From Halorubrum sp. 48-1-W (GTDB lineage Archaea > Halobacteriota > Halobacteria > Halobacteriales > Haloferacaceae): 59,540 bases of DNA. A program made the translations under genes and the position numbers. The notes beneath the pieces were generated by a model that was not told where the DNA came from, did no database searches, and saw only the letters and a program-made list of their open reading frames with translations. This document shows, piece by piece, positions 59,244-59,540 of the stretch (position 1 is its first letter; every line of letters begins with the position of its first letter). The DNA lies in NCBI RefSeq assembly GCF_003287355.1, contig NZ_QMIM01000029.1:1-59540 (forward strand), in the 5' to 3' direction.

Positions 59244-59540
59244 ATGACACGGCCAACCCGGCAACGGGATCACGACCGGCAGCGCGTGCGGGACGAGGAC
59301 GCGGAGGGATCGGAACCCGGCGAGGTGGACGTCGAGGAGGCCGATCCCGACGATCTGGACGTCGAGGAGGTCGATCCCGACGAGCTGGACCCCGACGACC
59401 TCGACCCGGCGGAGCTCACCCGGACGGCCGACGGCGAACTGATACACGAGGAGACCGGACTCATCATCGAGGAGGAACAGATAGACCCCGGCCCGGAGTG
59501 GCGGGCGTTCAACCACTCCGAGCGCCAGTCGAAGTCCCGC
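59244..59540 (+). CDS. Transcription factor B (TFB) paralog without zinc-ribbon cysteines, partial
   Basis: The first 99 residues of a rightward gene are in the window. The N terminus begins [15 protein letters not shown], then an acidic repeat ([26 protein letters not shown]) and [36 protein letters not shown], which is the TFB zinc-ribbon tail and B-reader start (Trp-Arg-Ala-Phe, Ser-Glu-Arg). The usual zinc-binding CxxC pairs are absent: LIHEETG stands where LVCEDCG is found in ordinary TFB. No cysteine occurs in this part. It should recruit RNA polymerase to promoters as a TFB; the cyclin folds are beyond the edge. Confidence 0.85.
   Translation, partial: [99 protein letters not shown]

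Follow-up and report, generated by a model that had tools for sequence, protein, structure and literature searches.

At the promoter, polymerase is recruited by the B-ribbon of TFB, the archaeal TFIIB homologue (PMC7289017). The window analysed here is the entire contig C15, 59,540 bp in length, of the 3.58-Mb draft genome of Halorubrum sp. 48-1-W, and it ends within a gene for a TFB whose ribbon cysteines are missing. How can such a factor bring polymerase to a promoter? The question is open to test; we infer from the sequence that the protein is free of zinc and that it docks to polymerase. The following features of the window bear on it.

54864 to 55400, minus strand: inorganic pyrophosphatase (ppa), a member of the conserved locus (synteny)
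55744 to 56097, plus strand: PadR-like regulator, a member of the conserved locus (synteny)
56207 to 56902, minus strand: conserved protein of unknown function beside rnhA (synteny)
56889 to 57512, minus strand: RNase HI (rnhA), the conserved upstream neighbour of TFB (synteny at Cys-free and zinc-bearing loci)
57593 to 59203, minus strand: ORF between rnhA and TFB in the window species, outside the conserved locus (ORF list, synteny), which we take by recognition to be of the M81/MlrC-like family
59208 to 59214, plus strand: TTTTAAG, a TATA-like conserved element 5' of TFB (upstream regions compared between the Cys-free and the zinc-bearing TFBs of the rnhA locus)
59232 to 59243, plus strand: TATATAAATGCG, an AT-rich element immediately 5' of the TFB ATG, kept in most orthologues (upstream comparison)
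59244 to 59540, plus strand: Cys-free TFB, 5' 99 codons, cut by the contig end (ORF; full-length matches in the same genus)
59325 to 59417, plus strand: acidic tract V28-L58 with DPDDLDP-like repeats, of different length in different species
59388 to 59486, plus strand: zinc-ribbon replacement D49-D81, a conserved motif (residues counted over 89 unique Cys-free proteins; dN/dS)
59445 to 59456, plus strand: HEET at the site of the second CxxC knuckle (residue counts, pattern scan)
59490 to 59540, plus strand: intact start of the B-reader, the last 48 bases being identical to contig C30

The contig end and the zinc-bearing paralogue

The reading frame that begins with the ATG at 59244 remains open through the last base, 59540, on the plus strand, and its 99 codons encode the start of a TFB. 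As the window is the whole of contig C15, the truncation of this gene is the end of the assembly. The draft assembly breaks at a 248-bp tract that is exactly identical to that of a zinc-bearing TFB paralogue. Of the tract, 48 bases terminate C15, 145 are unassembled and 55 stand at the end of contig C68, which carries the 3' part and the downstream region of the zinc-bearing gene. In contig C30, the 5' sequence of the zinc-bearing gene runs into a 3' half that agrees with the Cys-free orthologues both in its end and in the DNA that follows, so that C30 is a probable chimeric join of the two paralogues. The 248-bp exact repeat lies at their junction, at 4966 to 5213 on the reverse strand of C30 (L030). 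By synteny with relatives, the rest of the window gene is most likely to be found in the first kilobase of C30. Contig C68 was considered as its 3' half and rejected: the protein encoded there ends in EAMGFR, a universal-stress-like ORF comes next, and the downstream region matches that of the canonical gene, while the 3' half in C30 (EAMGIHA) matches the downstream region of the Cys-free orthologues.

The zinc-bearing paralogue (MERPSRQR.., the 5' part in C30) has a reader and linker nearly identical to those of the Cys-free protein and a very similar core. It differs in having four cysteines, another locus and the universal-stress-like ORF as its next gene. The 3' halves of the two genes share 87% DNA identity in this genome. 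At third codon positions, the Cys-free TFB and the zinc-bearing paralogue of one genome are at least as similar to each other as are orthologues from different species, a pattern that holds for several windows of the reader, linker and core; the window genome has, in addition, the identical tract of 248 bp. This is apparent gene conversion between the paralogues, and such conversion could help the reader and linker to persist; divergent copies elsewhere retain both elements too. The common parts of the paralogues are kept alike and the N-termini apart, which suggests that it is the N-terminus that makes them differ in function.

The N-terminal module, the reader and the core

The earlier note had described a TFB without zinc-ribbon cysteines, carrying LIHEETGLI at the CxxC site, and this is borne out. 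The window peptide contains no cysteine at all, all four of the ribbon being missing. Its match to the zinc-ribbon model PF08271 is confined to the tail and reaches 24.1 bits, below the cut-off of 29. Two full-length orthologues also stay below it (17.7 and 22.2 bits); the zinc-bearing paralogue from the same genome scores 58.6 bits. Sequence comparison of the full-length Cys-free orthologues found no alternative N-terminal cysteine, which disposes of a ribbon formed by other cysteines. Among 214 TFB loci, part of which were chosen by similarity and some of which repeat a species, so that the frequencies are not those of a survey, the ribbon has no cysteine in 123 and four in 91; none has one to three.

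The Cys-free proteins have a motif of their own in common, ..D-P-E-D-L-x-R-T-x-D-G-E-L-I-H-E-[EP]-T-G... Counted back from GPEW, positions -22 (T), -14 (E) and -11 (G) are invariant in all 89 unique proteins, and positions -23 (R) and -29 (D) are conserved in 87 of them. Within Halorubrum, dN/dS over the 31 residues before GPEW is 0.13, by which measure the motif is under purifying selection; on this evidence the zinc ribbon is swapped for a new conserved motif and not left to decay. The earlier note had also called the acidic repeats unusual. The DPDDLDP-type repeats are present and vary in sequence and length, while their last copy belongs to the conserved motif. The second ribbon hairpin appears to be retained in the acidic module (GELI-HE[EP]..). 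An AlphaFold model (mean pLDDT 68.7, with residues 1-34 and 68-117 below 50) contains two short hairpin strands (48-50 and 56-58), at low confidence.

The residues at the former ligand positions raise the question of another metal site, in which His68 together with acidic residues would hold zinc or a different metal. The position of the third cysteine is His in 86 of the 89 unique proteins, and TFE-alpha of Haloferax, with a single cysteine, still binds zinc weakly (PMC5861453). However, there is only the one His, which is replaced by Asp in the remaining three proteins, and the other three ligand positions are occupied by Thr/Ser or by acidic and aliphatic residues; the fourth position is Thr in 87 of 89 and Ser in two. 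Such a site is improbable. It is easier to imagine, though still rather unlikely, that the acidic-hydrophobic module binds a protein that brings the polymerase, such as TFE, another TFB or an adaptor. The module has new invariant residues (R-T, D-x-x-x-L and H-E-x-T-G), and its hydrophobic residues are regularly spaced among the acidic ones, which resembles a binding motif; its hairpin half, however, is still ribbon-like. This dependence on a co-factor overlaps with the explanation preferred below, in which the module would dock either the polymerase or a partner.

The intact B-reader start noted earlier extends into a B-reader and B-linker (GPEWRAF..SR..VGAPTT..HDKGLTTTIDW) that are near invariant across 20 full-length Cys-free orthologues. 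These motifs are also retained in divergent Cys-free copies from other genera (e.g. L116 and L110-L112). A full-length orthologue passes the NCBIfam archaeal TFB model NF001658 with 432.7 bits (cut-off 384), and the TFIIB cyclin-like repeats (PF00382) are present in the full-length orthologue L078 with 178.1 bits (cut-off 23.6). Both models are passed clearly by the two full-length orthologues that fall short of the zinc-ribbon cut-off. The core can be aligned with the structure of the Pyrococcus TFB-TBP-BRE complex, the recognition helix EVTxRNRY included: EVTIRNRYQE, the BRE-recognition helix of the second repeat, corresponds to EVTVRNRYKE of complex 1d3u. The TBP/BRE-binding core is thus intact by homology, in keeping with the TBP and BRE binding predicted in the earlier note. 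Within Halorubrum, dN/dS of the Cys-free TFB is lower still in the reader plus linker, at 0.05, and in the core, at 0.03; the value for the canonical TFB core, 0.18, is seemingly inflated, perhaps through incomplete entries, and was set aside.

A sequencing error, a decaying gene or an assembly artefact can be given practically no weight. The contig end does cut the gene at the 248-bp repeat, but the Cys-free sequence is carried by dozens of species, in independently sequenced genomes, with full-length intact frames and low dN/dS. As far as the loss of cysteines is concerned, these comparisons refute an artefact; the truncation alone is one.

The earlier note had suggested a competing factor. 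As a natural competitor or repressor, the core would bind TBP and promoter DNA without recruiting polymerase and so block the canonical TFB. The zinc ribbon is the known contact with the RNA polymerase dock (PMC7289017), and with a core nearly identical to that of the zinc-bearing paralogue (the 3' halves at 87% DNA identity) the same promoters would likely be bound. The B-reader and B-linker, however, act solely inside polymerase, and a blocker needs neither, yet both are near invariant at a dN/dS of 0.05; furthermore, the ribbon gave way to a conserved motif and did not decay. We infer that the reader and linker are inserted into the polymerase, which makes an active factor likelier than a blocker. 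Repression by competition is therefore disfavored as unlikely, and less likely than active initiation.

The rnhA locus and its distribution

The order of the conserved block is ppa, padR, the conserved unknown, rnhA, TFB and nreA. In the window it can be followed as far as the contig end, and other Halorubrum and many Haloferacaceae genera carry this ppa-padR-rnhA-TFB-nreA block too. In relatives, rnhA directly adjoins TFB, without the ORF at 57593 to 59203 in between.

In seven other haloarchaeal families, the slot linked to rnhA holds a four-Cys TFB in all 11 loci examined (L271-L281). These proteins have the same B-reader and a core about 94% identical to that of the Cys-free TFB, and the upstream elements of the two kinds of gene are similar; the difference is a CPEC..CxxCG ribbon in place of ..DPEDLxRTxDGELIHExTG. 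The Cys-free TFB is therefore the orthologue that lost its zinc ribbon. Of the designation TFB paralog in the earlier note, TFB stands, but the gene is more than an extra paralogue: by position, its orthologue in other families is a zinc-bearing TFB. The host is a multi-TFB haloarchaeon, as had been supposed, with many TFBs in the genome.

There are exceptions to this arrangement. Genomes G177 and G316 have a four-Cys TFB in the rnhA slot and a Cys-free copy elsewhere. In G287, of the Haloferacaceae, the slot holds a four-Cys TFB that was either retained or regained. Extra Cys-free copies outside the slot (the Haloplanus-type L289, and L290) show later duplication or transfer. L214 and L215 (G334 and G387) and L289 are second copies in which the Cys-free N-terminal motif sits on a TFB core of greater divergence, which suggests that the module has spread. 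In a tree of the core proteins the Cys-free TFBs do not group as one clade; gene conversion between paralogues and the chimeric entry L002 confound it. A single origin would rest on the common motif and locus and not on the tree.

Within the genus, the best match covers all 99 residues at 80% identity or more (80-94%) in 33 of 34 genomes. The exception, G013 (completeness 94%), has only fragments of the Cys-free type. A DNA pattern that requires non-Cys codons at both positions of the second knuckle, ahead of the B-reader, detects the gene in 87 of 94 Haloferacaceae genomes versus 5 of 298 others in the order, and its reversed control gives zero matches. All 13 Haloferax genomes sampled are positive; this genus (g28) is identified by G264, which matches a Haloferax larsenii plasmid with 96% identity over 3,741 bp. 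Named loci come from Halorubrum, Halopenitus, Haloparvum, Haloplanus, Halohasta, Halogranum, Halegenticoccus, Natronocalculus and Halalkalirubrum. As judged from sequence, the missing ribbon is a family-wide replacement in the Haloferacaceae TFB. A TFB query gave no match in the phage records searched, and the plasmid matches over the whole query that were inspected, in Natrinema and Halomontanus, proved to be four-Cys TFBs.

Six Haloferacaceae genomes are without the Cys-free gene, which is thus not essential everywhere. In three of them, all of one genus (L299 and L302 in G161 and G210, L291 in G240), rnhA directly adjoins nreA with no TFB; by this adjacency the arrangement is a natural gene loss.

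In Haloferax volcanii, the genes for RNase H-E and NreA are HVO_0732 and HVO_0734, respectively (PMC7776575). The Cys-free TFB lies between rnhA and nreA in the two Haloferax genomes checked, and HVO_0733 is therefore, by synteny, the predicted copy in H. volcanii. Tfb1 and Tfb2 of that species (HVO_1052 and HVO_1676), with published responses to hypochlorite and iron starvation, are other TFB genes.

A possible course of initiation

By combining these observations, it is possible to outline how the Cys-free TFB might work. In the ancestor of the Haloferacaceae, or near it, the TFB of the ppa-padR-rnhA-TFB-nreA locus would have lost its four ribbon cysteines, and its N-terminus would have turned into an acidic Cys-free module that retained the second ribbon hairpin. 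The cyclin core would bind TBP, BRE and promoter DNA as in other TFBs, and the reader and linker would enter the polymerase cleft. The retained hairpin and the acidic segment would dock the polymerase, or a partner protein, without zinc. Such docking would probably be weaker than that of a zinc ribbon, or take place under other conditions.

On balance we consider it probable that this is a zinc-free archaeal TFB that acts as an active initiation factor and docks RNA polymerase in a metal-free manner. The proposal in the earlier note that polymerase recruitment departs from the textbook zinc ribbon is supported by the intact core and reader and the absence of ribbon cysteines. More tentatively, the acidic metal-free module may be a second mode of docking, which would make initiation proof against zinc shortage and oxidation beside the zinc-bearing TFBs. 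If the proposed mechanism is true, this TFB would be unaffected by zinc shortage and thiol oxidation and would possibly serve a separate regulon.

A zinc-sparing or oxidation-proof role is attractive by analogy, as other basal factors of Haloferax have lost metal ligands. TFE-beta has lost its Fe-S cluster and the zinc ribbon of TFE-alpha is degenerate (PMC5861453); H. volcanii TFE-alpha/beta is, like the Cys-free TFB, a haloarchaeal basal factor without its metal-binding cysteines, and it still functions. TFE is a different protein, however, and the passages of PMC5861453 consulted do not mention a loss in TFB. In bacteria, zinc-independent ribosomal proteins likewise provide a zinc-free counterpart beside the zinc-bearing forms, as an analogy only (PMC5912738 and PMC8866557).

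The expansion and the clades of haloarchaeal TFBs have already been described (PMC4230888, PMC2121645); the words "zinc" and "ribbon" are absent from the main text of PMC4230888. The search, which covered open-access literature, yielded no description of a TFB that lacks the zinc ribbon. The zinc-free TFB is thus a probable undescribed variant.

A ribbon-less TFB under selection in almost all Haloferacaceae, the genetically tractable Haloferax included, makes the requirement for zinc-ribbon docking testable, and it allows one to ask which element can stand in for the ribbon. It also raises the question of whether haloarchaea meet metal or redox stress with cofactor-free basal factors. Natural pairs are on offer for such comparisons: one locus with and without zinc, and genomes with a clean loss of the gene.

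Sulfolobus TFB3, likewise a TFB paralogue short of a standard domain, is the reverse case, in which the zinc ribbon is present and the B-finger and the BRE helix-turn-helix are absent (PMC2246294); the Cys-free TFB, with the opposite arrangement, does not belong to this type. The 24.6-kb contig C33 of the window genome (L037, about 1914 to 2564, plus strand) encodes a core-only TFB of 218 residues, with two cyclin repeats and without ribbon, reader and linker. In L187 (G214:C17:142300-144000), a four-Cys TFB lacks the linker in frame (RVGAPTTQTMHDKDAGERNLQ), which is either a real deletion or a collapsed repeat.
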